A stretch of 64,000 bases of DNA from Acidobacteriota bacterium. GTDB taxonomy: Bacteria; Acidobacteriota; Blastocatellia; Pyrinomonadales; Pyrinomonadaceae. Shown in pieces: positions 42,673-61,166 of this stretch. The position numbers were made by a program, and so were the translations under genes. The notes below the pieces were generated by a model. The model searched no databases and was not told the DNA's origin. It worked only from the letters and a program-made list of their open reading frames with translations. The stretch is from assembly GCA_019639155.1 (NCBI GenBank), contig JAHBSJ010000001.1, positions 310,001 to 374,000 on the forward strand, in the 5' to 3' direction. Position 1 is the first letter of the stretch. The number at the start of each line of letters is the position of its first letter.

Positions 42673-42710
42673 TCCTTTATCTTCCCTTTCGTTCTTACCT
42701 GCCAACAAGG

Positions 42711-44112: not shown

Positions 44113-44158
44113 ACTGTTAACCGAAGGGTTGTAAGTTCGAGTCTTACCTGCGGAGCCA
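44113..44158 (+). other. Attachment site: 3' remnant of tRNA-Asn(GTT)
   Basis: ACTGTTAACC carries the anticodon loop with GTT; then GTAAG-TTCGAGT-CTTAC forms a perfect T-arm (44131-44147), followed by the acceptor 3' strand CTGCGGA, G and encoded CCA. A matching 5' acceptor strand (TCCGCAG) is not found upstream and the anticodon stem does not pair, so only the 3' half is tRNA. This is the remnant expected when an integrase inserts at a tRNA 3' end, leaving the full gene at the other end of the element. Confidence 0.8.
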
Positions 44159-44166
44159 ATATTTTT

Positions 44167-45241: not shown

Positions 45242-45257
45242 CTGTCAGTTTTGACAG
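45242..45257 (+). promoter_or_regulatory. Palindromic operator, site 6 (CTGTCA-N4-TGACAG)
   Basis: CTGTCAGTTTTGACAG is a perfect 6+6 dyad with a 4-base spacer, 113 bp before the receiver-only gene at 45371. The core CTGT-N8-ACAG is the same as in five sites located before minus-strand genes between 53.7 and 61.2 kb. Confidence 0.65.
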
Positions 45258-45370
45258 TAGCGCAGTCGATTGGAATCGAACAGACTAAAGCTGTTGAGAA
45301 AGTGGTCGGCCTTTTAGTTTCATTTGATCCGCCGTTGTTTGGTGTACCTCATTAACGGAGAAAAAGCACC

Positions 45371-45802
45371 GTGGCTGAGAAAAAAGGTCAAAAGCCGACA
45401 AGAGTGATAATCGCCGATGATAATAAGGAGATGCTGGAAACCGTAGCGGACTTTCTGGGATCTACATCAGAGTTCGACATAGTCGGTATGTCTGCGGATG
45501 GAAAAGCGTTGATCGATGCCGTTCTGGAATTAAAACCTGACCTTGGGATAATCGATATTTCAATGCCGATATTGAATGGCATCGCAGCCGCTGCCGAGAT
45601 AAAACGGCTCGGTTCGGACATGAAGATAATTTTCCTTACTGTTAACGAGGATCGGGATTTCGTGCAAGCCGCGTTTGAAACAGGGGCGTTGGGTTATGTG
45701 GTGAAGCGAAAGATGGCCTCTGACCTCCGGCCCGCTATTCATGCTTGTCTCAATGGCCGAAGATTTGTTTCCTCCGGATGTGGTGCCGGCCCGGACATCT
45801 GA
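45371..45802 (+). CDS. Single-domain response regulator
   Basis: 143 residues from a GTG start. Receiver only: VIIADDNKEM, DLGIIDISMPILNG with the phosphoacceptor Asp, IIFLTVNED, and GYVVKRKM with the Lys. It ends after the last helix (ACLNGRRFVSSGC) without the LuxR HTH. It is clearly related to the neighbouring regulator (DISMP, FLT-NED). It may be a phosphate sink or a truncated copy. An operator-like dyad lies upstream. Confidence 0.88.
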   Translation: MAEKKGQKPTRVIIADDNKEMLETVADFLGSTSEFDIVGMSADGKALIDAVLELKPDLGIIDISMPILNGIAAAAEIKRLGSDMKIIFLTVNEDRDFVQAAFETGALGYVVKRKMASDLRPAIHACLNGRRFVSSGCGAGPDI

Positions 45803-45900
45803 CATCCACCATTTCCCCCGCATCCGATCATCCGGCTCGTTCTAAACGGGCCGCTTTCAATTTCAAAGGCAAATGCGGACAGATTGGTGAAACGCGGCCG

Positions 45901-47097
45901 CTACATCAACATCTTCAACAGCCTGTCGAGGAGCTCTTCGAGGGAGAAAACGAACAGGAGCAATGGAAGCAGCGGCATCAGCGTAATGAACGTCATGTAG
46001 ATAATGTCGGTAATGCCAAATGGCACCGGTTTCGTCTGCTCTATTATCGAGTAGCTGTTGCCCAGATCGGCCAGTGACTGGAGATCACTCGTTCCCAACA
46101 ACTGTTTATACGTTGGATCGTCACCCGATATCCACTTTGAGTTAAACTCTTCGACATATTTGCTTGCAAAGGTACCGAAAACCCCTCCCCGATCCCATTT
46201 AGCTTGGATAAGCTTGGGTGCAAACAACGCCAGCGGGGCGAGGACAGCGGCGAGGACCAGTATAACGACCCCGGCGGCTTCGAGTTTGTACTCGCGAGGG
46301 TCAGAGCCGAAATGGATCACCTGACCCGCAACGAACCCGGAGAGAATAGCACCTTGAGCGATCATCCAGTAAGTGAAGGAATAAGCACATTTGTTCAGGA
46401 ACCCGAGACCGGCAACGCGGTCAGAGTGGGTCGGCAGCAGATAGAGGTTGAGACGCGAAACCCGCAGCAGAAAGACAAACCAAATAAAGATACGAAAATA
46501 CCAGCGTAGGAACAGAAATTGAAAAACAGGCAAACTGACAAACACGAGCCAATAGCCGGCCAAGGTCAGATTCCAGCGGATTCCGTCCGGGGCAGCATAC
46601 CACGTGGAGATCGCCCCTGATGCTGATGCCATTAGAGTGCCGTAGAAGACAGGCCCGGCCACATAGACGGCTATCAGCAGGAGGAGCTCGGCAACTGTGC
46701 TGTCGCGCATTCGGGACGCGGATCGTATCGCGGCCCGAAACCTCGGAAGATCGCCATCAGTGATGATCCTGCGACGAATAAAATTCTTGATCCGCGGGGA
46801 AATATGCTTCTCGACAAGTGTTTCAGCAGCAAGCAGCAGCGGCAGTGCGGCAAGGAAGCGGACGTGATTCTCGACGTCCTTGAAAAACGGTATGTCGACG
46901 CCGCCGGCTGTTCGGCCGTCTATCATCGAAAGCAGCATCAGCGGCAGCCACGTGAAGGCAGCGAAAGCGACGATCCGACGAATGGACGGTTCAAGCCTTT
47001 CATCGCAGAGTTTTAGCCGACGGAGAATACGATAGAATGGCCCGCCCTTTACCAGCGAAAAATCCGGGATCTCTTGTGAGTGGTCGATATCCGTCAT
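45901..47097 (-). CDS. Integral membrane protein
   Basis: 398 residues with about six to eight hydrophobic spans, for example AFAAFTWLPLMLLSMI, LAALPLLLAAETLV, AELLLLIAVYVAGPVFYG, LTLAGYWLVFVSLPVFQFLFLRW, GVVILVLAAVLAPLALFAP and IYMTFITLMPLLPLLLFVF. A conserved-looking loop LYLLPTHSDRVAGLGFLN lies in the middle. No transporter family recognised; similar proteins occur as hypotheticals. It is the last gene of the minus-strand sulfatase operon, 9 bp after the maturase. Confidence 0.7.
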   Translation of the reverse strand: MTDIDHSQEIPDFSLVKGGPFYRILRRLKLCDERLEPSIRRIVAFAAFTWLPLMLLSMIDGRTAGGVDIPFFKDVENHVRFLAALPLLLAAETLVEKHISPRIKNFIRRRIITDGDLPRFRAAIRSASRMRDSTVAELLLLIAVYVAGPVFYGTLMASASGAISTWYAAPDGIRWNLTLAGYWLVFVSLPVFQFLFLRWYFRIFIWFVFLLRVSRLNLYLLPTHSDRVAGLGFLNKCAYSFTYWMIAQGAILSGFVAGQVIHFGSDPREYKLEAAGVVILVLAAVLAPLALFAPKLIQAKWDRGGVFGTFASKYVEEFNSKWISGDDPTYKQLLGTSDLQSLADLGNSYSIIEQTKPVPFGITDIIYMTFITLMPLLPLLLFVFSLEELLDRLLKMLM

Positions 47098-47106
47098 TGT
47101 CGATAT

Positions 47107-48462
47107 TCAGTGTTCCATTCGGCGACGATGTCCGGCCATGGCCTCGTTAACTCCGACGTCAGATCCGCGCGGTGAAGTTCGATCGACCAATGCCATGATG
47201 TCGGCCGGAGCCCGCCCCTGCGTCAGCAGCTCGGCCATCGTCGAAAAGGCCGGACGCGTGCGCCTGAAGAAAAATTCAAGACCGGGGCAGAGATAGTTAT
47301 GGCCCGGCTCACCATCTCTCGAAAGCGAAAACCTGTCCTTAGGGCATCCGCCATTACATAAAGAAAGAAACTCACATTGTCTGCACTGGGCGGTCAACGA
47401 GTCGTATTTATCGTTTCCAAAGCGACGCTGCCGGGGCGATGCGACCATCTCCAGCATGTGAGCATCGTGTATGTTGCCGAGTTTGAAATCAGGCTCGACG
47501 TAGTGGTCGCAAGAATATACGTCTCCGTTGTATTCCAGAACCGGTCCCAGCCCGCAGGTAGGAGCATGAACGCACAAGGAGTGCTGGCCGAAGTATGCCT
47601 CGAGCGTGACGTCAAAAAGCTGGACAAAAACCGAGGCGACGTCGTTGCGAACCCACTCCTCAAAGACGTCGAGCATGAATTGCCCATATTGCTTCGAGCG
47701 GACCGATCTCTCGGTCACCAACTTTCCCTCTTGTTTATAGAGCAAACGATCTCGCCCCGCTTTGGCCGCCCAACCTTCATTCGCGATCGCAATGGTTTTC
47801 GTTGTCGCCCGCTCGACAATAGGAATGAACTGTATCCACTGAGCGTCAAGCTCGTCACGGAAAAAGCGGTAGACCTCACGGCCGTGCCTTTCGTTCCCGG
47901 CATGAACGGTACACAAAATATTGAAGTCGACCTCGTGACGACGAAGCACCTCCCAGCCCTTCATCACGCGATCGAAGGTACCCTTAGCGCCGCGATCCAC
48001 ACGATATTGATCGTGCATTTCACGCGGGCCGTCAACACTCAGGCCGACAAGAAAATTGTGTTTCTTGAAGAAAGCACCCCATGCGTCGTCGAGCAGAATT
48101 CCATTGGTTTGAAATGTGTGAAGTACGCTCTGATCCGGTTTCTTGTATTTCTCGACCATGTCGATCGCCTTCTGAAAAAAATCCAGCCGCATTAGTGTGG
48201 GTTCACCGCCTTGCCAGGAAATGGCCACCTCCGGTGTCTTGTGCGATTCGAGCAACTGGCGTATGTGTTCCTCAAGCGTATCATCCGACATGCGGTTCTT
48301 TTCCGTCGGATACAGAGCTTCCTTAGAGAGGAAGAAACAGTATGTGCAGTTGATATTGCAGGTCGATCCTGTCGGCTTAGCGAGCAGATGAAATGCGGGA
48401 GGAGGATCTAAGATCTCTTTACGAGAGCTTCTATCAATGACTTTCGCCCTTTTCTTTTTCAT
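47107..48462 (-). CDS. Anaerobic sulfatase-maturating enzyme (radical SAM)
   Basis: 451 residues. Radical-SAM signature C35-N-I-N-C39-T-Y-C42 near the start, then GGEPTLM, and a SPASM region with CGLGPVLEYNGDVYSCDHYVEP, read in parts, and QCRQCEFLSLCNGGCPKDR toward the C-terminus for auxiliary clusters. Such enzymes convert the active-site Cys or Ser of sulfatases to formylglycine without oxygen. The gene directly follows an arylsulfatase with a Cys-type CSPTR motif, its likely substrate. The pair is separated by a strong hairpin. Confidence 0.95.
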   Translation of the reverse strand: MKKKRAKVIDRSSRKEILDPPPAFHLLAKPTGSTCNINCTYCFFLSKEALYPTEKNRMSDDTLEEHIRQLLESHKTPEVAISWQGGEPTLMRLDFFQKAIDMVEKYKKPDQSVLHTFQTNGILLDDAWGAFFKKHNFLVGLSVDGPREMHDQYRVDRGAKGTFDRVMKGWEVLRRHEVDFNILCTVHAGNERHGREVYRFFRDELDAQWIQFIPIVERATTKTIAIANEGWAAKAGRDRLLYKQEGKLVTERSVRSKQYGQFMLDVFEEWVRNDVASVFVQLFDVTLEAYFGQHSLCVHAPTCGLGPVLEYNGDVYSCDHYVEPDFKLGNIHDAHMLEMVASPRQRRFGNDKYDSLTAQCRQCEFLSLCNGGCPKDRFSLSRDGEPGHNYLCPGLEFFFRRTRPAFSTMAELLTQGRAPADIMALVDRTSPRGSDVGVNEAMAGHRRRMEH

Positions 48463-48505
48463 TGCCTTTCACTCCGCCCATGCCTGATCGCGATCTACCA
48501 AGAAA

Positions 48506-48530
48506 GCCGGCGGCCTCTTCGGCCGCCGGC
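48506..48530 (-). terminator. Perfect 10-bp hairpin between sulfatase and maturase
   Basis: GCCGGCGGCC and GGCCGCCGGC pair over 10 bp with a 5-base loop. On the minus strand it is followed by TTTCTT. The tail is weak, so it could be a partial terminator or a processing/stability hairpin that gives less maturase than sulfatase. Confidence 0.6.
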
Positions 48531-48543
48531 GTGATGGGTAATA

Positions 48544-50916
48544 CTATCCCTGGGCTGTCTTCGCGGCAGCCACGTACTTCACGCGAACATTTTCGATGGT
48601 GCCGTTGAATTTGAACGGTGCCTTTTCACGGTAATCAAGCGACACGGGTGATCCGAGTGCGATACCTATGTCCAGGCAGTCGTTGGCAGTAAAGAGCAGC
48701 GGAGCACTGATCGGAACCTGGCCTGAACCAACCACGTTGCCGTTAACCCTCAACGTGATGTTGAGCGGCCCGGCTTTCTTCATGACCGCATATGCCGTCT
48801 CGATCTCGATCCTGACCTTTCCAACGGGCAACCTCTCGGTCGAACGGATCTTTGTTCGCTGGACGATGAACAGGTTGTACTCGTAGCACAGGTATCCGTC
48901 ATCAACAAAGCACGTCAACCCGGCGCTGTTAGCACCGAGTTTGTACAGAACACCATTGGCATTCTCGGGAATTACGGCGTCGATGGTGACGACATTGGGC
49001 TTATTACCGAGAGCCGGAGCGCAGAACTCAGGCATGCGAATGATGTCCCCGCTGAAGTTCCACTCACTGTAAGGCGGTGATATCCGCATCTCCGGATGCA
49101 TGATCGGTACGAATAGGCCGCCGCCGATCGGCAACGCATTATTCTTTGTCGCTTCGATCAGGAAGATCTCCTTCAACTGCGCGAGTTTTTCCGGCATCTC
49201 TGCAGCCAGGTCTTTCGACTGGGTCCAGTCTTCGTCGACGTGGTAAAGCTCCCAGACATCGTCGTCGGGCGTCCACTGGAGGATCTTCGGATCGATGCCC
49301 GCAACCCACGGAATTCGCGGGCCAAATGCAGAGGCCATCCAACCATCGTGATAGACGGAGCGGCTGCCCATGACCTCGAAATACTGTGTACGGAGCCGGC
49401 CCTCAGCGTGCGGATCAGTGAACGTGTACGCAAGGCTCACCCCATCGATCGGGTCCTGCTGGACGCCATTCACAACCCGCGGAGCTTCGATCCCGAGGAT
49501 CTCGTAGATGGTCGGAACGATGTCATTGCAGTGATGGAACTGGGATCGCGGCGTGGCATCATGCCGGATCTTCGCCGGCCAACGAACAGCCATCGGGTTC
49601 CGCGTTCCGCCGAAATGTGATGCAAGGAGCTTGGTTCCCTTGTAGGGAGTGCTGCCTGCCCACGCCCAGCCGGCATGATACTGGTTGTCCGTCAGCGGCG
49701 AACCGAGGACGTCCAATCCGCCGAGCTCCTCGAGTGCGTCGATGTGCTGCCTGACGGTTGAGGGTATTCCGCTCTGAGCAAGGAGTTCGCTGATGGTTCC
49801 GTTCTGCCCTTCCGACGATGAACCGTTGTCACCCCAGATGTAGAAGATCAGAGTGTTGTCACCGTACCCCAGTCGCTCAACCTCATCTACGAGGCGTCCG
49901 ACCTGCACGTCAACATGTTCCGCATAACCCGCGGCGACCTCCATAAGCCGTCGCTGGAAGGGCTTTTCGTCCTCAGGTATGTCGTCCCATGCCGGCATGG
50001 TTTCATGGCGGGGCGTTAGCTCGGCATTCGGAGGGATCCATCCTTTTTCCTTTGCCCGCGCAAAGACGCGTTCGCGATAGGCATCCCAGCCGTCGTCGAA
50101 CTTGCCCTTGTACTTGTCTGCCCACTCCTTCATGATGTGGTGCGGACCGTGGATCGCTCCGCTGGCCCAGTACATGAAGAACGGCTTGTCTGCCTGAAGT
50201 GCCCGATGGGTGCGCAGCCAGCGGATCGCGTCGTCCGCGAGGTCTTCGCTAAGGTGATAACCCTCTTCAGGTGTCTTCGGCGGGAGTACGCTTGTTGTAT
50301 TTCGAACAAGATTCGGCTCATACTGCGATGCCTCGCCCGCCAGGAAACCGTAGAAATACTCAAAACCGAGCCCCGTCGGCCAGCTCTCGAACGGCCCTGC
50401 GATCGTTGTTTCTTCTGCGGGCGTATTGTGCCATTTGCCCCACGCTGCGGTGCAGTAGCCGTAATCTTTCAAAACCTTCGCAACCAGCGCACTGCTCGTT
50501 GGGATGTGTCCCGAATATCCGTCCCAATCATTCGCAAGCTCGGCGATCTGACCGTTGCCTACGCGGTGATGATTTCGGCCGGTCAAGAGCGAGGCTCGGG
50601 TCGGCGAGCACATCGCAGTGGTGTGAAAGCGATTGTACGCGATGCCTTCTCCGACGATGCGGTCCATCGTCTTTGTCGTCACCTCACCGCCGAACGTCGT
50701 CGGCAGCCCGGGGCCGGCATCATCGATCAGGATCACCATGATGTTCGGAGCATCTTCCGGTAAGAATTTTTCGGTCGGCATTGGGCTGTACACTGACTCC
50801 TGCATGGTACGGCCGGCAGTGCTTCCCGACTTTTTCGCAGGGAAAGGAAGCGAGTCCCGCTTAACAGCTTTGCCGCTCAGGAACTCCTTCGTTTTAGAAT
50901 TATTGTCGTCTGACAT
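48544..50916 (-). CDS. Arylsulfatase (Cys-type)
   Basis: 790 residues from the ATG at 50916; GGAGGA sits just upstream, while the longer GTG start at 50931 would contain that SD. Sulfatase core: NIMVILIDDAGPG metal-binding Asp pair, AMC103SPTRASLLTGRN with formylglycine precursor Cys103 in C-S-P-T-R, WGKWHN, and FYIWGDNGSSSEG. A C-terminal domain has ENANGVLYKLGANSAG and a lectin-like beta sandwich. No signal peptide was seen, so a cytoplasmic enzyme or an unusual export route. It hydrolyses sulfate esters; substrate unknown. Confidence 0.93.
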   Translation of the reverse strand: MSDDNNSKTKEFLSGKAVKRDSLPFPAKKSGSTAGRTMQESVYSPMPTEKFLPEDAPNIMVILIDDAGPGLPTTFGGEVTTKTMDRIVGEGIAYNRFHTTAMCSPTRASLLTGRNHHRVGNGQIAELANDWDGYSGHIPTSSALVAKVLKDYGYCTAAWGKWHNTPAEETTIAGPFESWPTGLGFEYFYGFLAGEASQYEPNLVRNTTSVLPPKTPEEGYHLSEDLADDAIRWLRTHRALQADKPFFMYWASGAIHGPHHIMKEWADKYKGKFDDGWDAYRERVFARAKEKGWIPPNAELTPRHETMPAWDDIPEDEKPFQRRLMEVAAGYAEHVDVQVGRLVDEVERLGYGDNTLIFYIWGDNGSSSEGQNGTISELLAQSGIPSTVRQHIDALEELGGLDVLGSPLTDNQYHAGWAWAGSTPYKGTKLLASHFGGTRNPMAVRWPAKIRHDATPRSQFHHCNDIVPTIYEILGIEAPRVVNGVQQDPIDGVSLAYTFTDPHAEGRLRTQYFEVMGSRSVYHDGWMASAFGPRIPWVAGIDPKILQWTPDDDVWELYHVDEDWTQSKDLAAEMPEKLAQLKEIFLIEATKNNALPIGGGLFVPIMHPEMRISPPYSEWNFSGDIIRMPEFCAPALGNKPNVVTIDAVIPENANGVLYKLGANSAGLTCFVDDGYLCYEYNLFIVQRTKIRSTERLPVGKVRIEIETAYAVMKKAGPLNITLRVNGNVVGSGQVPISAPLLFTANDCLDIGIALGSPVSLDYREKAPFKFNGTIENVRVKYVAAAKTAQG

Positions 50917-51006
50917 CTTTTTGTCCTCCACTGTTCATATCCGCCTCGCCGCCGGCTTGCCCTCATTATTTGGAGCCCCGTTTACGTGAGAAACGGACGC
51001 TTGAAA

Positions 51007-52497
51007 TTACTTCACCATTTCGAGATCCCCCGGCTTCCAAGTTTTGTCAAACCACGGCTGCAGCGGGCCGTAGAGACGCACCACCACGTTGTAGCTCTTG
51101 CCGGGCATGGTCTGGATCCAATTGCCCTCGCAGCCTGCGGGGGCCTCAGGACCGAACCACATGGTATAGGAACCGTCGGCATTCGGCTTGACCGAGGGAT
51201 TGTTGCTATCGAGTCCGGCAAGCTTCTGGTCGGTTTCCAGCATCGAACGGTGCTGCCCCGAATAGACCATGAAAGACCAGAAGTTGTTCACCGGAACAGG
51301 AGCCGGAAGTGTGACCGAGTAGGTCCTGCCGCCATCGAGGTACTGGCCGTCCGCGTCCCGGGCAGCGATCGCATAAGCGGAGCCGGTGCCCACCTTTGGT
51401 GCCGCCATCGCTGGGGTGATCCCCGTAGCGTAGTAGTGGAAGAAGATCCGGTCATCGAGAACGCGTTCCCCGTTGTCCATGAACTCGTAGCTCCCGCCCG
51501 CGAACGCGGAATTCCACTTCCGGTCGGGGTAAAAGTACACGTTTGGCTTACGCGGCGCGAATGTCAGAGCGCGGGCCGTGGCGTTCCCCACCGCCACCGC
51601 TTCGGTCAGGATCTTCCTCATCCGCTCGTCCGGATCAAAAGGCCGCCCCTTCTTGATGCCGATCGAGGCGAAAAGTCCGACCAGTTCCGGGTCGAAGGCA
51701 TCGCAGGGCTCGTACTGGATGACGGCGTTCAGCTCTTCGTAGAACGTGAAATTGTTGGCATGTATCGTGTTGAACTGCTTGCCCGACAGATTCAGGAACC
51801 GCTGACGGGGAGGATCGTCGGCCTGCGACAGCGGATACATGCGGAATTTCGCCTTGAGTGCATCGGCGGTTCCCTTGAGATCGCCGTCCTGGACGAACGC
51901 ACGGAAGAAGAAATTGTTGCGGTAGGTCGGTGTTCTCGCGACGTAGTAGCCCTCGGGGATCTCCCCCTTGTAATCGCGATGGACGAACAGATACTTCCCG
52001 CCCTTGCCCTGATCCGGGCCGGTCATGCCGACGTCAGTGATCCAGCGGAAGAAGGCGTCATCCACGGGACCCAGAACGCCGGTCGGGATCTCCGCCACGA
52101 CGGGTTCGTCCTTGACATTCAGTTCCGTCATTGCATAGACAGTGGTGGAGTTTGGCGTAAGGAAGAGGGAACGGGCGTCCATCAATTCCTCGAAGATGCC
52201 AAGGTCACCGGGGTTGAGCCCCGCTTCCTTCAAACCTTCGAGCGCCGCATAGACCGAAGCCGCGGGAATCCCGTTTAGAAACGTTTCCACGCCGCGGGCG
52301 AAGTCGAGGAAATCGTAGGTCTTCTTGACGGTGGCATTACTCGGCATCCCGTCGAAGAACTCAAGATCACCGAGAAATTTAGTGTGGACGTTGTCCGGGG
52401 TCTTGATCCCTTCCGGAACCTTGGCGGCGAACTTGGGTTCTGGCGCCGATTTTGCCGGACTGTCTGTATTTGTTACATCATTTCTACTTTCTTTCAT
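51007..52497 (-). CDS. DUF1254/DUF1214 protein (first copy)
   Basis: 496 residues from the ATG at 52497, preceded by GGGAGGAAATGAA; the GTG at 52512 would include the SD. DUF1254 region: GVETFLNGIPAASVYAALEGL, SLFLTPNSTTVYAMTELNVKDEPVV, read in parts, and GKGGKYLFVHRDYKGEIPEGYY. DUF1214 region: SVTLPAPVPVNNFWSFMVYSGQHRSM, read in parts, ending GEGNWIQTMPGKSYNVVVRLYGP-like. The function of this family is not established; members are often next to outer-membrane or transport genes. A second copy lies at 56228-57628. No signal peptide seen. Confidence 0.88.
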   Translation of the reverse strand: MKESRNDVTNTDSPAKSAPEPKFAAKVPEGIKTPDNVHTKFLGDLEFFDGMPSNATVKKTYDFLDFARGVETFLNGIPAASVYAALEGLKEAGLNPGDLGIFEELMDARSLFLTPNSTTVYAMTELNVKDEPVVAEIPTGVLGPVDDAFFRWITDVGMTGPDQGKGGKYLFVHRDYKGEIPEGYYVARTPTYRNNFFFRAFVQDGDLKGTADALKAKFRMYPLSQADDPPRQRFLNLSGKQFNTIHANNFTFYEELNAVIQYEPCDAFDPELVGLFASIGIKKGRPFDPDERMRKILTEAVAVGNATARALTFAPRKPNVYFYPDRKWNSAFAGGSYEFMDNGERVLDDRIFFHYYATGITPAMAAPKVGTGSAYAIAARDADGQYLDGGRTYSVTLPAPVPVNNFWSFMVYSGQHRSMLETDQKLAGLDSNNPSVKPNADGSYTMWFGPEAPAGCEGNWIQTMPGKSYNVVVRLYGPLQPWFDKTWKPGDLEMVK

Positions 52498-52522
52498 TTC
52501 ATTTCCTCCCACGTATCTTGTT

Positions 52523-52927
52523 TCACATACGTTTTCTCTCGCTTGGCTTGATGAAGCGCGAAGCGATCCGATTAACGATCCCTCGCAGGATCAGATATGG
52601 CACTATGGCCAAAATGAACGCGACCAGGATCATTTCGAAAGGATAGACCCAGCGTTCGGCAATGAGTTGGTAAATAATATCGAGCACGATCGCGGCGACG
52701 AGCACCTTTCCGACCGACTTCCAACCATCCATGAGCATCTCGCGGCGATGCTCCGGTTGAGTGAACATTGCCCAAAAGTAAGCGGGGCTGCCCGCTTTCG
52801 CATCTTTCAAGCCCGCGATAATTGCGAAGATGGCAGCCATCAACGGCTGCATATATAGCCTCAGGTGCATAGGCCCGGTGACCCTCGCTCCCAGGTTCTC
52901 AATGATTCTGGTGATCACGTCTTCCAT
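52523..52927 (-). CDS. Small membrane protein
   Basis: 134 residues with three or four hydrophobic spans: LYMQPLMAAIFAIIAGL, VGKVLVAAIVLDIIYQLI, and PFEMILVAFILAIVPYLILRG. No family recognised with certainty. Lies 1 bp after the DUF202 gene and 25 bp before the DUF1254 gene, in the same operon. Confidence 0.7.
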   Translation of the reverse strand: MEDVITRIIENLGARVTGPMHLRLYMQPLMAAIFAIIAGLKDAKAGSPAYFWAMFTQPEHRREMLMDGWKSVGKVLVAAIVLDIIYQLIAERWVYPFEMILVAFILAIVPYLILRGIVNRIASRFIKPSERKRM

Positions 52928-52928
52928 T

Positions 52929-53336
52929 TCAAAACCCTCCCAATCCGAAGAAAATATTCAGTATGGTGAACAGTCCAACTAACAACACACCAAATGCACC
53001 AACGAGTGAGATAGAGAACTGCGGCCGAATTTCGGAGTAGGCCTGCACGGCCTTTCGCGTGTGAACGAACTGCACGATGGCAAGCACCAAAACTCCCATC
53101 CCCAGAAAGATCAGGAATAGTCCGAGGTTGCGGGGAGCATTCTCACGCATTCCCGAACCGGTTCTTTCCTGGAGTGTCTGGAGAAATTTGAAGATCGTGA
53201 AACCAAAACTTATGAGCGACAGCGATGTGCGGATCCACGCCATCAGCGTCCGCTCAAGAGCCATCACGGTCCGACCAAAGCCCATTTCCGTTCGTTCGGC
53301 GGCGAGTTGATTCGATGTAAGAGCTGTGTCATTCAT
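52929..53336 (-). CDS. DUF202 (YidH-type) membrane protein
   Basis: 135 residues from the ATG at 53336, which overlaps the preceding stop (ATGA); a longer frame upstream runs into that gene. Family signature MALERTLMAWIRTSLSLISFGFTIFKF, read in parts, then two more spans (LGLFLIFLGMGVLVLAIVQF, GAFGVLLVGLFTILNIFFG). Inner-membrane protein of unknown role. Confidence 0.88.
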   Translation of the reverse strand: MNDTALTSNQLAAERTEMGFGRTVMALERTLMAWIRTSLSLISFGFTIFKFLQTLQERTGSGMRENAPRNLGLFLIFLGMGVLVLAIVQFVHTRKAVQAYSEIRPQFSISLVGAFGVLLVGLFTILNIFFGLGGF

Positions 53337-53701
53337 TTTATTGCTTCGGCCTCCTCGGTCTTTTGTGCGGACTGCCACGGCCAATGTCCCTCGATCTCGA
53401 CGCTCAGCGACCAGCTCAGGAATGTCCGTATCAATACCAACAGCCCGAGGACCGCCGCATTCATCAGGGTCGGTTCGAGTGCTACCGTTCGGATTATGTC
53501 CGCGGCAACCAAGAACTCCAGCGAAAGGATCAGCATCTTCCCGAGCCGGTGCTTATATTGTCGGAAAGCGTCAGGAACCTTTTGATTTACATGGATCAGA
53601 AACCTGACCGTACCGAACAGGCTGGCTATCACGATGACGACCACGGCCGCCACTTCAATTCCAGTTGCCGACCATTCGGTGAACAGCTTTATGGATTCCA
53701 T
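53333..53701 (-). CDS. DUF1622 membrane protein, first gene of the sulfatase operon
   Basis: 122 residues. Spans ATGIEVAAVVVIVIASLFGTV and LGKMLILSLEFLVAADIIRTV, and a third VLGLLVLIRTFLSWSLSVEIEG; the last segment, with FLSWSLSVEIEG, is typical of DUF1622. Role unknown. The operon 53701 to 45901 contains seven genes with small gaps or overlaps, and the only large palindrome lies 71 bp before this start. Confidence 0.88.
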   Translation of the reverse strand: MESIKLFTEWSATGIEVAAVVVIVIASLFGTVRFLIHVNQKVPDAFRQYKHRLGKMLILSLEFLVAADIIRTVALEPTLMNAAVLGLLVLIRTFLSWSLSVEIEGHWPWQSAQKTEEAEAIK

Positions 53702-53771
53702 TGGTTGCCTCCTTCGGATCTTCGGAGATCCATTGATCTGAGCTTAGTGTTGCCGATTTTCAGGTACCGGA

Positions 53772-53792
53772 TAACTGTAAGAACTGACAGGT
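53772..53792 (-). promoter_or_regulatory. Palindromic operator, site 1
   Basis: TAACTGT-AAGAACTG-ACAGGT on the + strand; read toward the gene it is ACCTGT-N8-ACAGTTA. It lies 71 bp before the DUF1622 start, ahead of the seven-gene sulfatase operon. Confidence 0.7.
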
Positions 53793-53871
53793 TGGCGGCT
53801 GCTAAAATGAAAGAGAGCGGCGGCTTTTGCGTAAAGCCGACGCTCTTTGTTGCATGTGTAAACGATCGCCG

Positions 53872-54774
53872 CTAGAAGGTTTTGCCGAACGAGACGACAA
53901 CGGTCACACCCTGCGTCCTCGAACCGGCACCGTACTCCGGAAAGACCCTAACCAGAAAATTGAATTTCTTTGCGGGCAGGATCACGCCAAACTCGGGCCC
54001 TACGGCATGAACCCTGTCCTTTTCCCCTACGTTGAGCGGGGTTACGTCCGGGCCGCTGTCGTTAGTCAGCTGGAACTGTGAATATCCGACAACACCGAAC
54101 TGATACAGCTGTTTGCCGCTATTCCTTACGAACGTCTTGCCGACGCCGTACTCGAATGTCACGTTATTTCCGACCTTAACGTCACTCTTCCGTTTTTTGT
54201 GGTGTGCTTCCCAAACGCTCGACGCGTTGATCTGCCAAAGCCCGGTTTTCCCCGGATTATAAGTTCCTCCCAGGGTGAACTGATGGCCCCAGTAGTCTGA
54301 CGTCGTGCTGTCGGATCCTGTCGGAGCACTCACGCCATAAGCTGCCCTTACCTTTCCTTTCTTCATCGTCCAACCGAGGCTTAGCGGCTCTATGTAAATG
54401 TCGCCAATGCCGCCACCCTCCACGCCAACGCCGATCCGCGGGATGGTTACCGCCGAATTCACGATCGGTACCGTTATCGACGCAGAATATGTGGCCCCGA
54501 GGATCTTCTTTTTTGGCGTGTAGGCAAGTACATTCATGTCGGCGACCAGATCCAGGCCGAAATCTATCGGCGCCTTGTTTCCGTCCTTATTCTTGTATGT
54601 ATCAGTAGGATAGACCGTAAAAAAGTTTGCGTAGGTGAATCCCGGTGCCGGCTGCTCCGCGGTGTTCAGTCCGCGTAAGCCCGGCAAATACAGGCCCCTT
54701 TCCTGCCCAACGACGGTCGCCGCACACATGGCCGCGACCGCGACCAGAAACAATATCTTTGTATATCTTTTCAT
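53872..54774 (-). CDS. Outer-membrane protein, Phenol_MetA_deg family
   Basis: 300 residues. Signal peptide ILFLVAVAAMCAATVVGQ. The mature chain is an amphipathic beta-barrel pattern: GLYLPGLRGLN, FFTVYPTDTYKNKDG, IDFGLDLVADMN, GIGDIYIEPLSLGW, AYGVSAPTG, and a terminal VTVVVSFGKTF with an aromatic end, as in outer-membrane barrels. Members of PF13557-type transporters import hydrophobic or aromatic compounds. It has its own upstream operator. Confidence 0.78.
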   Translation of the reverse strand: MKRYTKILFLVAVAAMCAATVVGQERGLYLPGLRGLNTAEQPAPGFTYANFFTVYPTDTYKNKDGNKAPIDFGLDLVADMNVLAYTPKKKILGATYSASITVPIVNSAVTIPRIGVGVEGGGIGDIYIEPLSLGWTMKKGKVRAAYGVSAPTGSDSTTSDYWGHQFTLGGTYNPGKTGLWQINASSVWEAHHKKRKSDVKVGNNVTFEYGVGKTFVRNSGKQLYQFGVVGYSQFQLTNDSGPDVTPLNVGEKDRVHAVGPEFGVILPAKKFNFLVRVFPEYGAGSRTQGVTVVVSFGKTF

Positions 54775-54853
54775 TGCTTTGCCTCCCCAAACGGATCTAA
54801 GGGCTGTTCGGGGGTCTCCCTGGGAATATATTCATTTAGATCGAGAACCTTTT

Positions 54854-54874
54854 TAACTGTAATAATTTACAGGT
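54854..54874 (-). promoter_or_regulatory. Palindromic operator, site 2
   Basis: TAACTGT-AATAATTT-ACAGGT; CTGTAA/TTACAG is a perfect dyad. It lies 80 bp before the outer-membrane gene at 54774, in the same orientation as site 1. Confidence 0.7.
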
Positions 54875-54927
54875 CGGCAGAAATTGCTTCGTACTTCGCT
54901 ACCGGGTCCCGGCCTTGATCCTACGCA

Positions 54928-55947
54928 TCATTTTCTTGGGAACAGCGGGGTCACGGTCAGTCGAAAACCGCAGCCTTCGGGGCCGGTCGGCGAGCTTGCG
55001 ACCCAGCAACGCAAGGTTCCGCCAAAGCTGACAGGCTGCTTTCCGAATCGAACGAGTTTCGCGACCGATAGGTGTAGGGGAACGTTCCATTGATCCGCTT
55101 TCCAATCGTATGTGGACTCGGCATTCAGCGTATAGGTCCACGCGGTTTTGGTCGAGTACGACAAGAACGGCTGAAAATTGCTCATGCTGAACGATGGACG
55201 GGTGTCGCTGCCCGCTACCGACCAGAAGTGACCTGCAAGTGAACCGACAGACCACGGTCCCTGCTGTTTGAGAATAAGGAACGTTGGCCCCAGACTCAGC
55301 TTCTTTGTGCCAAGATGTTGGTTCGTTGCCGTCGGTATCATTACTTGCGGCCCGATCGCCCAAATGACCGGCTCGGTCTTATTCGGTGAAAAGAAAAATG
55401 CCTGTGTTATATCACCAAGCCCGAATTGGCTTGAACCGTCAGCGACGACGTCTTTCTGGCCCATGATCGGAATGATCGTTCGCGAGATGAGGTTCCAGTC
55501 CTTGTTAAGTGTTATCGGGATCACGGGCTGAACATTCAACGTCTGGCGGAAGCCGTGGCCGTTCGGGCCCATGCCGAAATCCCAGTTGCTTTGAAACGGC
55601 AGGCTGATAAGCGACGAGACGGGATTGGACAGTTTCTTTGCCAACGCCGCCGGATCGTCCTGCGAGGTTTGCCGAACGCTGCCGCGGAACGACGACTCCT
55701 CGCCTGGTCGCCTCACGGAAAATTCGGGCTCGTAAACAGCTCTCCTGTCCGATCGGGATAGGCTGGCGACCGTGTCCGCCTTTTTCTTTCTTATCTTATC
55801 CTTGACGGGTTCTTCTGCCGTTCCGGTCACTTCGGCCTTTTCCGCTGTTGTTCCTTTAGTCTCTTGCTGGCAAAAAACACCGATCGTCAGCGGCCCTGCC
55901 AACAATACGGCCATAACGACACATTTTAGATCTGATCTCTTGAACAT
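54928..55947 (-). CDS. Outer-membrane transporter-like beta-barrel protein
   Basis: 339 residues. Signal peptide (VVMAVLLAGPLTIGVFCQ), a charged Lys-rich linker, then a barrel pattern: VSSLISLPFQSNWDFGMG, NVQPVIPITLNKDWNLISRTI, FGLGDITQAFFFSPNKTE, LTVTPLFPRK at the end. It resembles the family often labelled neuromedin U/transporter by automatic pipelines, i.e. a PF13557-related barrel. Own operator upstream. Confidence 0.75.
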   Translation of the reverse strand: MFKRSDLKCVVMAVLLAGPLTIGVFCQQETKGTTAEKAEVTGTAEEPVKDKIRKKKADTVASLSRSDRRAVYEPEFSVRRPGEESSFRGSVRQTSQDDPAALAKKLSNPVSSLISLPFQSNWDFGMGPNGHGFRQTLNVQPVIPITLNKDWNLISRTIIPIMGQKDVVADGSSQFGLGDITQAFFFSPNKTEPVIWAIGPQVMIPTATNQHLGTKKLSLGPTFLILKQQGPWSVGSLAGHFWSVAGSDTRPSFSMSNFQPFLSYSTKTAWTYTLNAESTYDWKADQWNVPLHLSVAKLVRFGKQPVSFGGTLRCWVASSPTGPEGCGFRLTVTPLFPRK

Positions 55948-56014
55948 GACCTCATCCTCCGGTTCGATGGAAGTTCCATATGATTTTAAGAATCCCGCCG
56001 CTGGGCCGATGCGG

Positions 56015-56035
56015 TAACTGTCAAAAGTTACAGGC
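56015..56035 (-). promoter_or_regulatory. Palindromic operator, site 3
   Basis: TAACTGT-CAAAAGTT-ACAGGC. Core and orientation as in sites 1 and 2; 68 bp before the barrel gene at 55947. Confidence 0.7.
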
Positions 56036-56227
56036 CTTTCTGATCTGTATTGGCTTGAAGCTCACCAACGCGAGATCTCACGCCCTTTCTTGGCCGACGC
56101 GGGTTCCGAATGGCCAAACAAAATTGACCCGAACTGCGATCTTCAATGACGGCAAAGCCCTGTGAAGTTTGCAGTTCGGGCCACTCACAAAAGATGCGGG
56201 CCGTGCGGGTTCGCTCTTTTACTTCGT

Positions 56228-57628
56228 TTACGAAACCGCTTCCAATACCGGCAGATGCCCCTCGCCGCGCAGTATGTGCTCCGTCGGATAGTAGAGACGG
56301 AGAGCCATGAAGAACGGGCCGTCGGGAGCGGGAAGCCAATTCGCTTCTTTGTCGGCTCCCGGAGATGCGTGCTGAATATACAGGGTCACGCCGCCCTCCT
56401 CGTCACGTTTGAGGTCGGGCAACATCGGCGAATTGATCAGATAACGGTTGAGCGGGTTAGCAACCAGCAGGCTTTCAGGCAGCTTATACATAGTCAGCGA
56501 CCAAAATGCATTGACCGGCTTTTCATGCCCGGGTTCGAACCTCAGCCTATACGCGTGGTTGCTTCCATCGAGCGGGTTCCCATTCGAATCCAGGGTGTAT
56601 GTGGGATACATCGCTTCTTCCTTTGAATTGCCGTAAATACCCAGTATCGATGCCGCCATGCGATACAGATAATTGTTCTTCAGGTGCTCTCTGGTGCCGA
56701 AAATGTCACCCGAGGTCACCTCACCGGTGTCCACTTTGGTTCTCTTGAATTCCTCGTATTCCCGCAAGCCGTCAGACATTCCGTCCTCTAGTGCCTGCTT
56801 GAATGAAGCCGGCAGTTGGTTTACGTCCAAATGCCTGCCTGCACCGACGCCGATCCTGGAAAAGCGTTCCATCAGATCGACCTCCGATGGCACCGTCGGT
56901 GTGAACCGGAGGACAAAGTTCAGGATATTGAAGAACTCGATCGAGGATCTTTGCTCCGCCGGCGTGAGCGGCTTCATAAAGTCGATGGCCGGCGCCGACT
57001 TTCGCGGTTCGCCCATAAACTCCGAGAGCGGTCGTGCATTGTAACCCGCCTGTACCTGTTTCACATTGTCGAGGTCATTGGGATTGAACAGCTGGGTTCG
57101 AAAAGCGCCCATCACAAGTTCGGTCTCCGCACGGATGATCTTCTTGATCCCCGCCGGAGCTTCTCCGTTCCAATTAGGCCCTGCAATTAGGAAATTCCCG
57201 CCGTCGTTGCCCGTGGTCCGAGTGCCTATATATTCAAAATTGTGCGTGAAGGCGTCGATCAACTGCACGCTGAAATAGCGGTTCTTTTCAATTTCGGGAA
57301 TTGTTAGGACGATCGGCTCGGCACGAAGGTCCATTCCTATAAAGGAATATGGCGTGTCCGAGTTGGGCGTCTGCACGGCTTTGTCCTCAGGCGTGTAGAC
57401 ACGTGGAACATTGCGGATCTCGTTCCAATGGGCTTTGAATTCCGGACCCGTCTCATCGACAAAATATGCGTACTCAATGCGGTAGCTATCAACCATTGGA
57501 AATCCATAGACAAACGCCTCCTTTGCAATTGCACGAACCTCTTCGGGACTGATGTCTGCAGCGGTTTTAGCACCGCTTGCTGCTGCATTAAAACTTATAA
57601 TGTCTGTTTCTGTGATCATTTTATTCAC
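56228..57628 (-). CDS. DUF1254/DUF1214 protein (second copy)
   Basis: 466 residues. DUF1254: EEVRAIAKEAFVYGFPMVDSYR, read in parts, DKAVQTPNSDTPYSFIGMDLRAEPIVL, FSVQLIDAFTHNFEYIGTR. DUF1214: FWSLTMYKLPESLLVANPLNRYLI and a final WLPAPDGPFFMALRLYYPTE. The same family as the protein encoded at 51007-52497 but only distantly similar, so an old duplication. No clear signal peptide. It has its own operator (site 4). Confidence 0.9.
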   Translation of the reverse strand: MNKMITETDIISFNAAASGAKTAADISPEEVRAIAKEAFVYGFPMVDSYRIEYAYFVDETGPEFKAHWNEIRNVPRVYTPEDKAVQTPNSDTPYSFIGMDLRAEPIVLTIPEIEKNRYFSVQLIDAFTHNFEYIGTRTTGNDGGNFLIAGPNWNGEAPAGIKKIIRAETELVMGAFRTQLFNPNDLDNVKQVQAGYNARPLSEFMGEPRKSAPAIDFMKPLTPAEQRSSIEFFNILNFVLRFTPTVPSEVDLMERFSRIGVGAGRHLDVNQLPASFKQALEDGMSDGLREYEEFKRTKVDTGEVTSGDIFGTREHLKNNYLYRMAASILGIYGNSKEEAMYPTYTLDSNGNPLDGSNHAYRLRFEPGHEKPVNAFWSLTMYKLPESLLVANPLNRYLINSPMLPDLKRDEEGGVTLYIQHASPGADKEANWLPAPDGPFFMALRLYYPTEHILRGEGHLPVLEAVS

Positions 57629-57703
57629 TGCCTCCGATCGTTCTTATGAGGGCATGAAATGCCGCCCCCTGCGATGATAATGGGATTGCAGCAGCGATAA
57701 GAT

Positions 57704-57724
57704 AACTGTTAGTTTGTACAGGTA
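57704..57724 (-). promoter_or_regulatory. Palindromic operator, site 4
   Basis: TAACTGT-TAGTTTGT-ACAGGT, 76 bp before the DUF1254 gene at 57628. Confidence 0.7.
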
Positions 57725-57811
57725 TCCGGCAATTACCTGAGCGCAGATCTCGTTACAAAATTCCTGATGTTTGTAACGGGAAGATGACCGCCTTTTTTTA
57801 AGATGAGACGT

Positions 57812-59563
57812 CTAGCTTTTCGGCAAAGACACGCGGGCTTCAATTTTGGTACCGGCATCCGGGACAGAATCGACCGTTAACGTGCCGTCGACAGCGCGAA
57901 TGCGTTCCTGCATACTTATCAGGCCCAATGATTCCCTGGATCTGGCCAATTGTGTATCAAACCCGCTGCCGTTATCCGTGATCACCAGCCTGAGAATATT
58001 GTCGGTGACGGTCAGGTCGACGTTTGCAGCACTCGCACCACTGTGCTTTATGACATTCTGCAGCGACTCTTGTGCGATCCTGTAGATGCAGAGAGAGATG
58101 TCATTCGGCAATGAACGGGGAACGCCCACCGCTCTAAATCCTACTCTTAGGTGGTGGGCCGCCTGAACTTCACGGCAAAAACCGCGAAGTGCGGATTCAA
58201 GGCCAAGTTGGCTGATCTTTGACGGGTGCAGTTCGTGAGAGATGCGGTGAATTTCGGTCGAGAGCTGTTGGACCTGTCCCGTAAGTTTTTCGACCTGTTT
58301 CTTTATCCCGTCTCCATCCTTGTTCACCAGCGATTGAAGTTGGATGGACAGAATGGCGAGGCTTTGGCTCAGACCGTCGTGAAGTTCGCGGGCGAGCCGG
58401 GCCCGTTCCTTTTCCTGCGCGTCGATCAATCTATGGCTCAGATCATGAGCCTCGGCCTCCGCCTGCTTTCTACGCGTTATATCGACGGAAGCTCCGCGGA
58501 TCATCTTTCTGCCGTCGTCTTGATCTTGCGAACGGCCGATTGAGCGCACCCAACGAATATCACCATTCTGCAGCCGGATACGGTATTCGGCCTCATAAGT
58601 ATTCCCAGATTCGATCGCTGCTTGCAGTTGAGATTCGAGGGCCTCCCGATCATCAGGATGTACCTTTTCCATGTACAGGCCGATCGTGATCTCATCGCCA
58701 TCTTCGAATTTATAAAGTTCCCGCATCTTCTGATTGACCCAGACATTGTCTGTACTCAGGTCGCGGGCCCATATACCGACATTTCCGGCATTTGCCGAAA
58801 GGCTCAGTTGCTCAAGGGCCTCGGTCAATTCGACCTCTCGATTAGTGAGTTCATGGGCGAGATATTTCGAACGCCTCAGGTCATAGTCGAACTCAAGCGT
58901 CATCGCCAGGACGACGAACATTAGAGCAGGACTGGCAAACGGGGGTAGTTTTACCGACAGCCAAATTATAGCCCCTGCCATCATGAGGCCGGTCAAACTC
59001 AATAGGGCGGCTCCGCCGCCAAAGACAAGCGCTTTGCGGCGTTCGCCGCGTTGCCATACCGACCTGCATGCGTCGATCGTATAAACAAGAAGCAGAACCA
59101 GCGAAAGGGCCTGAACCAGATGCCAGGGATTGGCAACTCCGATAGGATATGAAAGTTTCTCGCCCAATACGGTGATCTGTTCGATCGCTGTGACCTCCCG
59201 ATATTGAATATTCACGGGCATTGCGAAGTTTATGAACATCCCAAACGTTCTGAGCCCTATGACCGACCAAAATAGCCATTCTCTTCCGCCTCGCAGGTGG
59301 ATACGCAAAAATATCGCCAGTGATACGACCGTTCCCCAGCTGGCGATCTGGCTCCAACGGGCAATTTCACCGAATTCAACCGGCGACGTGTTGTGCAGCC
59401 AGGCAACTTCGAAGAGGGAATATGACCCGCCAAAAAAACAGATGCTTGCGATAGCGAGCGGATCTGGCTGTGAGCGGTCCCCGATCCATAACCGCAGATT
59501 GATCAGTCCCAACGTAAAACAGATGATGGAAACCGCTAAAACGCTGTGGCTAATGATGTCTAT
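57812..59563 (-). CDS. Membrane sensor histidine kinase (NarL-type partner), probable ATA start
   Basis: About 584 residues if started at 59563. N-terminal membrane module with about seven spans, a PAS domain near residues 250-370 (IRLQNGDIRWVRSIGRSQ), then a HisKA_3 dimerisation domain (EKERARLARELHDGLSQSL, with phospho-His) and a GHKL ATPase (ALQNVIKHSGAS N-box, VITDNGSGFD G-box). HisKA_3 kinases pair with NarL-type regulators. A TTG at 59512 would cut off the first membrane span; upstream of it the frame stays open as DIISHSVLAVSIICFTLG, and GGAGGTGATCCA lies at proper SD distance from an ATA. So the start is probably ATA, or ATG mis-read. Confidence 0.85.
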   Translation of the reverse strand: MDIISHSVLAVSIICFTLGLINLRLWIGDRSQPDPLAIASICFFGGSYSLFEVAWLHNTSPVEFGEIARWSQIASWGTVVSLAIFLRIHLRGGREWLFWSVIGLRTFGMFINFAMPVNIQYREVTAIEQITVLGEKLSYPIGVANPWHLVQALSLVLLLVYTIDACRSVWQRGERRKALVFGGGAALLSLTGLMMAGAIIWLSVKLPPFASPALMFVVLAMTLEFDYDLRRSKYLAHELTNREVELTEALEQLSLSANAGNVGIWARDLSTDNVWVNQKMRELYKFEDGDEITIGLYMEKVHPDDREALESQLQAAIESGNTYEAEYRIRLQNGDIRWVRSIGRSQDQDDGRKMIRGASVDITRRKQAEAEAHDLSHRLIDAQEKERARLARELHDGLSQSLAILSIQLQSLVNKDGDGIKKQVEKLTGQVQQLSTEIHRISHELHPSKISQLGLESALRGFCREVQAAHHLRVGFRAVGVPRSLPNDISLCIYRIAQESLQNVIKHSGASAANVDLTVTDNILRLVITDNGSGFDTQLARSRESLGLISMQERIRAVDGTLTVDSVPDAGTKIEARVSLPKS

Positions 59564-59565
59564 TT

Positions 59566-59577
59566 TGGATCACCTCC
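59566..59577 (-). promoter_or_regulatory. Unusually long SD before a non-standard start
   Basis: GGAGGTGATCCA complements 12 bases of the typical 16S rRNA 3' end (TGGATCACCTCC). Its GGAGG lies 9 bases before ATA (59563-59561), which opens the kinase frame. No ATG, GTG or TTG occupies that spacing. Confidence 0.65.
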
Positions 59578-59705
59578 GGCAAACAAATAGAGCAGGGATC
59601 GCAATAAGTTTATTCCCAAGGGTGTTATTCGCAAAGTGACGTAAATACCCAATATGTTCCGGTTCCTCTCTCTGTGGCCATGGAAACCTCAAAATGCAAA
59701 GACGA

Positions 59706-60437
59706 TCACCGCTTCTTCAATTTGAATGAAGTATTCAGCGCAAGGCCGAAAATATTTGTGTTCGCAACACTACATGTGACGCAGTGCTGCCTTTCATACA
59801 GAAACTCGAGCGAGACCCTGCGTACCAAAGGCACCACCAGCCCTGTGCTGAATTTGAACACGTTCCATTTCCGGTACCTTTGGTCCCATTCCGCTTCTGC
59901 AGCAATGTAAGGTGTTATTTCTCGCGTCCTTATTCGGAAAGGCCGTTCCAACATCGGGCGATTCCGATAACGAAAATGGTAGTCTCCGTTGACCCAGCGA
60001 AACTCCGACCGATTCCTGTTGCTCAACAAAAGATCGCGCGGCAACGCGTAACGCAGCGTCGCGTCAAGCATCAGCTTTTTCTCAACAGATCTTACTTCCG
60101 CTTCGTTCGCGATCGAGTACTCGTAGGTCGCTGCCAGAACAAGAAGATGCTGCTTATCCTTATCAAATGAGTCGAGGAAGCGTCGAAAGACCGGCTTCAT
60201 ACGGAAACTTATGCCTGCTCCCACCTTACCTTTCGCGGAATCAATTTCCTCGCTTTTTTCCCTTCCCGCGTAAAGGTCCAAACGCACCTTTTCACTGAGT
60301 TCAAGCGCAATTGCGACCGTCGGGTCCAATTCAGTTATCGCAGAAGAGCTTTGGCCATGGACCTTCACCGCGACGATCAACAGGAGCATTGACGCTAGGA
60401 CGAAATATCCTCGAATTGACGGCGGCGGAGATAACAT
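59706..60437 (-). CDS. DUF2490-like outer-membrane protein
   Basis: 243 residues. Signal peptide FVLASMLLLIVAVKVHGQ. The chain has the DUF2490 pattern: VRLDLYAGREKSEE, KLMLDATLRYALPRDLLLSNRNRSEFRW, read in parts, FRYRNRPMLERPF, ITPYIAAEAEWDQRYRKWN. Barrel proteins of unknown function. It follows the exported gene at 60465 by 27 bp and is probably under operator site 5. Confidence 0.75.
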   Translation of the reverse strand: MLSPPPSIRGYFVLASMLLLIVAVKVHGQSSSAITELDPTVAIALELSEKVRLDLYAGREKSEEIDSAKGKVGAGISFRMKPVFRRFLDSFDKDKQHLLVLAATYEYSIANEAEVRSVEKKLMLDATLRYALPRDLLLSNRNRSEFRWVNGDYHFRYRNRPMLERPFRIRTREITPYIAAEAEWDQRYRKWNVFKFSTGLVVPLVRRVSLEFLYERQHCVTCSVANTNIFGLALNTSFKLKKR

Positions 60438-60464
60438 ACCGGATCATCGCTGATCTGCGACCCT

Positions 60465-61046
60465 CTATTTCCAGATCCTGAGGTTGTTCAAATTCCAAGG
60501 ATTTTGAAGAGCCTCGATCTCAAGTTCACCGTCTTTATTAAGAGTAAGCCGAGCGGCCGGTATCAAGGTGCCGGAACTCTTGCCCTTTTCATTCCTAATG
60601 AATATCTCACCCATGGCGAGCGAGTAATCCATTGTTCGGGCGCCTGCCCACTGCTCCGCAAAGCGGATGGGCCGGTCCGTTACGAAACGAACGTTAAGGG
60701 TGCCATCTTTCATTTTGAACAAGCGGATGTACTTAAGATCAAATCCCAGAGTTCCCGTGATGTCGATCCGCCCCTTCGAACCCATTTTCTCAAGAGCATT
60801 TACCAGGCCCTCGGTGCCCTTTTCTCCAAAAGCTTCGATCAGTGCCTGTTGATCCTCAGCAGTGGAAAACTTGGATATGTATATGTTCACACTAACCATT
60901 CGCCCCAGTTGGGTGGAGGTGCCGGCGGCTGTTGCCGTGATAGATAATGATCTAGGCGTCTGAGCAAAGGCGGTCGTGCCGGCTGTCAGCAGCAAGCACA
61001 TGACCGCGGTATAGAGGTTTTGTAGAATTTTTCGTGAGTGTTTCAT
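60465..61046 (-). CDS. Exported hypothetical protein
   Basis: 193 residues. Signal peptide LYTAVMCLLLTAGTTAFAQ. The mature part is beta-rich (VSVNIYISKFSTAEDQQAL, RIDITGTLGFDLKYIRLFKM) with no motif recognised. Preceded by operator site 5 and followed by the DUF2490 gene in one operon. Confidence 0.7.
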   Translation of the reverse strand: MKHSRKILQNLYTAVMCLLLTAGTTAFAQTPRSLSITATAAGTSTQLGRMVSVNIYISKFSTAEDQQALIEAFGEKGTEGLVNALEKMGSKGRIDITGTLGFDLKYIRLFKMKDGTLNVRFVTDRPIRFAEQWAGARTMDYSLAMGEIFIRNEKGKSSGTLIPAARLTLNKDGELEIEALQNPWNLNNLRIWK

Positions 61047-61145
61047 ATAGATAAAACCCCGAACTGATATTTATCGAACACCGGTTCATTATTCGAACAC
61101 GAATGAATGAACTGCGCTGAAGATAACATCACTTCAAAAGGTCTT

Positions 61146-61166
61146 TAACTGTACATTTTGACAGGT
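61146..61166 (-). promoter_or_regulatory. Palindromic operator, site 5
   Basis: TAACTGT-ACATTTTG-ACAGGT, 100 bp before the exported protein gene at 61046. Confidence 0.7.

Follow-up and report, generated by a model that had tools for sequence, protein, structure and literature searches.

A lux-box-like operator and a linked NarL/FixJ-type response regulator outline a probable two-component regulon in an acidobacterial gene island

In a 64,000-nucleotide stretch of the genome of an Acidobacteriota bacterium of the family Pyrinomonadaceae (assembly GCA_019639155.1, contig JAHBSJ010000001.1, positions 310,001 to 374,000; hereafter the window), a short, imperfectly palindromic site occurs six times, each time upstream of a gene and in a fixed orientation relative to it. 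The best explanation, and one in which we place considerable confidence, is that a NarL/FixJ-type response regulator encoded in the same gene island (44542..45171, plus strand), phosphorylated by a HisKA_3 histidine kinase, would bind the six sites and activate the genes behind them. The case is carried by the sites themselves, by their promoter geometry, by their conservation before orthologous genes, and by the co-occurrence and linkage of the regulator. A first-pass annotation, made from the letters of the window, had proposed a regulon of at least six units under this regulator, and comparative genomics now strongly supports that proposal. What emerges is very probably a new two-component regulon, its mechanism of a known kind, that stands out for its breadth across phyla and its lux-box-like operator.

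The six sites and their promoter geometry

Five of the sites lie on the minus strand and share one orientation, 68 to 100 bp before minus-strand starts. Operator 2, ACCTGTCAGTTCTTACAGTTA (53772..53792), is read towards the DUF1622 gene, 71 bp before its start at 53701; operator 3, ACCTGTAAATTATTACAGTTA (54854..54874), stands 80 bp before the start at 54774; operator 4, GCCTGTAACTTTTGACAGTTA (56015..56035), whose final base is C, 68 bp before that at 55947; operator 5, ACCTGTACAAACTAACAGTTA (57703..57723), 75 bp before that at 57628; and operator 6, ACCTGTCAAAATGTACAGTTA (61146..61166), 100 bp before that at 61046, with a -10-like TATCTT at the fixed offset described below. Operator 1, CTGTCAGTTTTGACAG (45242..45257, plus strand), precedes the receiver-only gene that starts at 45371, has a -10-like CAGACT at the same offset, and is oriented relative to its own plus-strand gene exactly as the five minus-strand sites are to theirs. 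The first-pass annotation had placed all of these correctly, including the variant last base of operator 4 and the copy before the receiver gene, save that operator 5 begins at 57703 rather than 57704. Its term palindrome applies to the core, CTGTNA-N4-TNACAG, which is symmetric; the flanks are unlike, ACC on one side and TTA on the other, so that the site as a whole is an imperfect palindrome. The eight bases between the half-sites vary from copy to copy.

The site is rare outside the island. CTGT-N8-ACAG is found six times in the window against 0.59 expected, a count that none of 100 shuffles reached. Throughout the 3.2-Mb genome, AACTGT-N8-ACAGGT has four copies, all four in the island, and its reversed control none; ACCTGT-N8-ACAGTTA, allowing at most one mismatch, returns five island sites and one stray, and its two-mismatch copies are no commoner than the control, these genome-wide counts coming from pattern searches. 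A weight matrix trained on other genomes only ranks the six sites, read towards their genes, at the top of the 64 kb with 20–29 bits, against a shuffled-sequence maximum of 15 bits, and the remaining high scores are the same six sites on the opposite strand. The spacing is specific, with 57 sites at N8 and 0–2 at other spacings in the same contigs. Random occurrence across the genome with no upstream bias, which the first-pass annotation had named as the outcome that would speak against a regulon, is not what is seen: the extended site is confined to the island. The sole other site in this genome that fits the stringent motif, CTGTYA-N4-TRACAG, is a perfect CTGTCAATAATGACAG on contig 21 at 189853 (5853–5868 of region L158); it directly follows the 3′ end of a tRNA-Leu gene, is flanked by converging genes, has no gene start downstream, and is probably a chance occurrence.

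When 56 sites are aligned in the sense of the gene that follows each, the TTA of the right flank emerges, as does a -10-like T-A-n-A-n-T spanning +31 to +36 relative to the dyad. An A at +32 combined with a T at +36 is present in 43 of the 56 promoters, whereas no other offset has the pair in more than 11; all six window sites conform. The CTGT and ACAG columns of this alignment are fixed by site selection, which did not dictate the inner TNA/TNA bases, the TTA flank, or the -10. The promoters keep a -10, but where the spacing would call for a consensus -35 they have none, and the operator stands there instead. Since the -10 lies at a fixed distance, the dyad falls near -43, replacing the -35 element, which is the usual position of a class-II activator. 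Class-II activation is thereby indicated, and the fixed orientation of the sites finds its reason in the promoter of fixed geometry downstream.

The regulator and its probable kinase

The product of the 44542 gene is the sole recognisable DNA-binding protein of the island by Pfam, where it matches Response_reg (88.6 bits) and GerE (56.5 bits); its best match in the PDB is NarL. Across 16 orthologs the recognition helix, TVAFHKY, is almost invariant, and the receiver residues D54, T82, and K104 (the phospho-acceptor Asp, Thr, and Lys) are invariant. These domains, the orthologs, and a presence that tracks site number make it the probable binder of the sites. A plasmid search with the regulator gave distant NarL-type proteins only, the best at 37%. 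Its conserved partner gene (45371..45802, plus strand; 12 orthologs aligned) encodes a single-domain response regulator consisting of a receiver, in which Pfam detects no DNA-binding domain.

A membrane PAS/HisKA_3 histidine kinase (57812..59512, minus strand; Pfam, NCBIfam) is the probable partner of the regulator, because homologous HisKA_3 kinases adjoin the regulator in many relatives and because the two proteins independently find MctS and MctR as their best NCBIfam matches. Neither is a member of those equivalog families, the kinase scoring 158 bits against the MctS cutoff of 700 and the regulator 144.5 bits against the MctR cutoff of 300. In two high-GC bacteria (L189, 2791–5640; L198, 2177–4591), the kinase and the regulator homolog apparently share a single open frame and may form a fused two-component protein.

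Co-occurrence and conservation across genomes

The stringent motif was counted in 118 genomes of the order, about one in ten of which has the regulator. Genomes with the regulator hold on average 7.8 sites (n = 13), against 0.4 in those lacking it (n = 105), and at least three sites are present in 12 of the 13 regulator-positive genomes versus 2 of the 105 others (p about 1e-13; like the other p values given here, this one ignores shared ancestry, and homologous promoters inflate it). Of the two exceptions with at least three sites, one, G099, carries a more remote homolog of the regulator; G078, scored as negative, holds a regulator fragment cut by the end of a contig; with both reassigned, p becomes about 2e-14.

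The association extends to other phyla. The regulator subfamily, recognised by the pattern TVA[FY]HKY[TS], is found in Gemmata, Gemmataceae, Limisphaerales, Terracidiphilus, Rokubacteria, and others. Gemmata (9.3 Mb) has both of its stringent sites at the regulator locus, one of them before the kinase gene; a Gemmataceae genome (7.3 Mb) and a Limisphaerales genome (5.8 Mb) each have their single stringent site at the regulator locus, and Terracidiphilus has two of its three there. Taken over ten distant loci, there are seven sites against 0.06 expected.

Closer to the window, the order and class were searched with the second DUF1254 protein, the exported protein encoded from 60465, and the regulator, and the matching regions were compared. 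Nearest among the named relatives are Pyrinomonadaceae and further Acidobacteria of group 4, most of them assembled from metagenomes, and the same module recurs in the regions compared. L091, of the same genus, has eight CTGT-N8-ACAG sites within 20 kb, among genes for the regulator, the receiver, the sulfatase, DUF202/DUF1622, the kinase, the barrel, DUF2490, and the exported protein. The site between the regulator and the receiver-only gene is present there and in L096, L100, and L115. Orthologs of the exported-protein gene are preceded by the site in five other genomes, and orthologs of the barrel, sulfatase, maturase, DUF1622, and DUF1254 genes have it too. Wherever a close ortholog of the exported gene occurs in other genomes of the order, the regulator is also present (8 of 8; p about 7e-10). 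DUF1254 alone does not bring sites, as is seen in G076, which lacks the regulator and whose DUF1254 locus is free of them.

Genes behind the operators

All of the following genes are on the minus strand. The sulfatase operon behind operator 2 opens with the DUF1622 membrane protein (53333..53701; Pfam), whose orthologs in G048 and G056 are preceded by sites. Then come a DUF202 membrane protein (52929..53384; Pfam), a small membrane protein of no Pfam or NCBIfam family (52523..52927; site before its ortholog in G051), DUF1254/DUF1214 protein a (51007..52512; Pfam), an arylsulfatase-like protein (48544..50931; Pfam Sulfatase and a PDB arylsulfatase match, with its own site in three relatives), and an anaerobic sulfatase maturase of the radical SAM/SPASM type (47107..48462; TIGR03942, 474 bits against a cutoff of 349, with its own site in G048). 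The probable distal gene encodes a membrane protein without a Pfam match (45901..47097), before which relatives have a site. The arylsulfatase-like protein bears a Cys-type CSPTR motif, and its gene adjoins that of the maturase. Elsewhere, a maturase gene with its own site goes with the sulfatase, of the radical-SAM type in G048 and of the FGE type in G118, which suggests sulfate-ester use as one branch of the regulon.

Operator 3 precedes an outer-membrane barrel of the Phenol_MetA_deg family (53872..54774), with the site before its orthologs in G048 and G118, and operator 4 an exported protein without a Pfam match (54928..55947), with sites before its orthologs in G006 and G050; the first-pass annotation had called both of them barrels, a term that Pfam bears out for the former. 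Behind operator 5 is DUF1254/DUF1214 protein b (56228..57628; Pfam), whose G078 ortholog, 78% identical, is preceded by the site at the corresponding position. Operator 6 serves the exported/DUF2490 pair, that is, an exported protein (60465..61046) and a DUF2490 protein (59706..60437; Pfam). By its orthologs, the former is the most consistently site-preceded target. Its family has many relatives across the class and no Pfam or NCBIfam entry. The predicted structure (mean predicted local distance difference test score, pLDDT, of 81) shows a single long helix and some nine beta strands, and has no PDB match at an E value of 0.001 or better.

Other genomes add DUF4136, PsiE, OmpA, DUF3300, porins, phosphoketolase, and serine dehydratase to the genes preceded by the site. 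The phosphoketolase and the serine dehydratase stand behind the operator in L162 (8171–10597) and L165 (3544–5172), which belong to further genomes of the family, a hint that central metabolism, too, falls under the regulon.

Next to the island, positions 39495–44160 of the window form an integrative element with a phage-type integrase (42711–43937) and a D5/DUF5906-type helicase (39495–40967). An apparent 3′ tRNA fragment at about 44117–44160 ends some 380 bp before the regulator gene and may be the attachment site of the element; ARAGORN detects no intact tRNA there.

Alternative readings and known systems

Several observations weigh against activation of these genes by the 44542 regulator. 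Planctomycete sites are without a clear fixed -10 geometry, and the regulator's own promoter is without a site. G027 has three sites and no regulator detected in an assembly that is 74% complete, and the regulator-bearing distant genomes of L189, L193, L198, L202, and L204 have no stringent site. To the shared ancestry that inflates the p values must be added the fact that part of the site set was chosen by the motif itself. Several related genomes also contain at least two regulator paralogs along with many sites.

Control might instead lie with the receiver-only protein or with an unlinked NarL-type paralog, a reading favoured by the multiple paralogs and receiver genes of several genomes; or the regulator might act as a repressor, since polymerase could be blocked by a palindrome that overlaps the -35 region. 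However, the promoters keep their -10 and carry the operator in place of the -35, as activator-dependent promoters do, and the receiver-only protein offers no domain with which to bind DNA. We therefore regard this alternative as improbable.

The first-pass annotation knew of no regulator with this site, a statement that was incomplete: the half-sites and spacing are those of the lux box, and the core is that of the LexA box. Indeed, CTGT-N8-ACAG is given as the SOS-box core in several papers, the spacing is identical to that of the enterobacterial (Escherichia coli) LexA box, and the genome has two LexA-type genes, all of which would fit SOS boxes before damage-inducible genes. The likeness ends with the core. 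The LexA-type genes have no CTGT-N8-ACAG upstream, the extended site is essentially island-confined (four of four perfect copies; five of six with at most one mismatch), site number follows the response regulator, no repair genes are among the targets seen, and the dyad occupies an activator position. With its own promoters devoid of the site and a distribution that does not fit, LexA was rejected as very unlikely.

Much the same verdict, very improbable, applies to the sites as lux boxes of an acyl-homoserine-lactone receptor, that is, to LuxR-type quorum sensing. The 20-bp Vibrio fischeri lux box, ACCTGTAGGATCGTACAGGT (PMC4444344), agrees with the sites in its ACCTGT-N8-ACAGGT half-sites and their spacing; the centre of lux boxes is at -42.5 (PMC4471428), nearly the position found here. 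The agreement covers the outer half-sites, spacing, and position but not the inner bases, TCA/TGA in the sites here, nor their TTA right flank, and the lux box scores only 9.6–11.2 bits on the relatives' matrix against 20.7–27.3 for the window sites. No Autoind_bind domain (PF03472) is encoded in this genome, and the six weak matches in the order include no site-rich genome; quorum-sensing LuxR was rejected on this lack of a receptor domain, the regulator here having a receiver in place of an acyl-homoserine-lactone domain. LuxR also has a GerE-type DNA-binding domain. The resemblance of the operators likely stems from similar GerE domains reading similar half-sites.

The PhoB (pho) box, with its CTGTCAT repeats, shares the half-site CTGTCA and the 4-bp gap. 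Pho boxes are direct repeats (PMC3333781), and PhoB is ruled out because the repeats here are inverted; the linked regulator, moreover, is of the GerE type. That the six sites are copies of a dispersed repeat, or a structural or terminator element with no regulator, might be supposed from similar short palindromes crowding one region, but has a negligible chance of being right, as the N8 differs between copies, the place before starts is fixed along with the -10, and the motif recurs before non-homologous genes and beside the same regulator in other phyla.

Among known systems, activation by the 44542 regulator would resemble that of the NarL/FixJ-family regulons (NarXL, DevR/DosR, MctSR), which likewise join a receiver + GerE regulator to a HisKA_3 kinase. 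The difference lies in the operator, CTGTCA-N4-TGACAG-TTA, and in the target genes, for neither of which a description was found in the open literature by motif or DUF combination, subscription journals being outside the scope of that search.

Proposed circuit and its meaning

The circuit that we infer comprises phosphorylation, binding, activation rather than repression, a kinase pairing, and feedback. The membrane PAS/HisKA_3 kinase, probably that at 57812–59512, would phosphorylate the 44542 regulator, and a dimer of the phosphorylated regulator would bind the operator, whose dyad would lie some 43 bp upstream of the point where transcription starts. Bound in place of the -35 element, the dimer would recruit RNA polymerase by class-II activation. 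Predicted to be activated are the sulfatase/maturase/DUF1254/DUF202/DUF1622 operon, the second DUF1254 gene, the exported/DUF2490 pair, two exported or outer-membrane proteins, and the receiver-only protein. The last, itself site-preceded, could feed back on the kinase or act as a phosphate sink.

More broadly, there is a somewhat better than even chance that a receiver-type, non-quorum-sensing regulator subfamily with an operator of lux-box architecture runs an undescribed regulon common to Acidobacteriota, Planctomycetota, and Verrucomicrobiota, co-activating sulfatases together with the host's maturase, DUF1254 proteins, envelope proteins, and a receiver-only feedback protein. To our knowledge, few regulator–operator pairs have been described in these mostly uncultured soil phyla, and for this one the definition drawn from sequence is good enough that its regulon can be predicted in any genome. 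The pair groups DUF1254, DUF202, DUF1622, DUF2490, DUF4136, DUF3300, and an unnamed exported family in one putatively co-activated response, and with that grouping a shared function of these unnamed families becomes testable.

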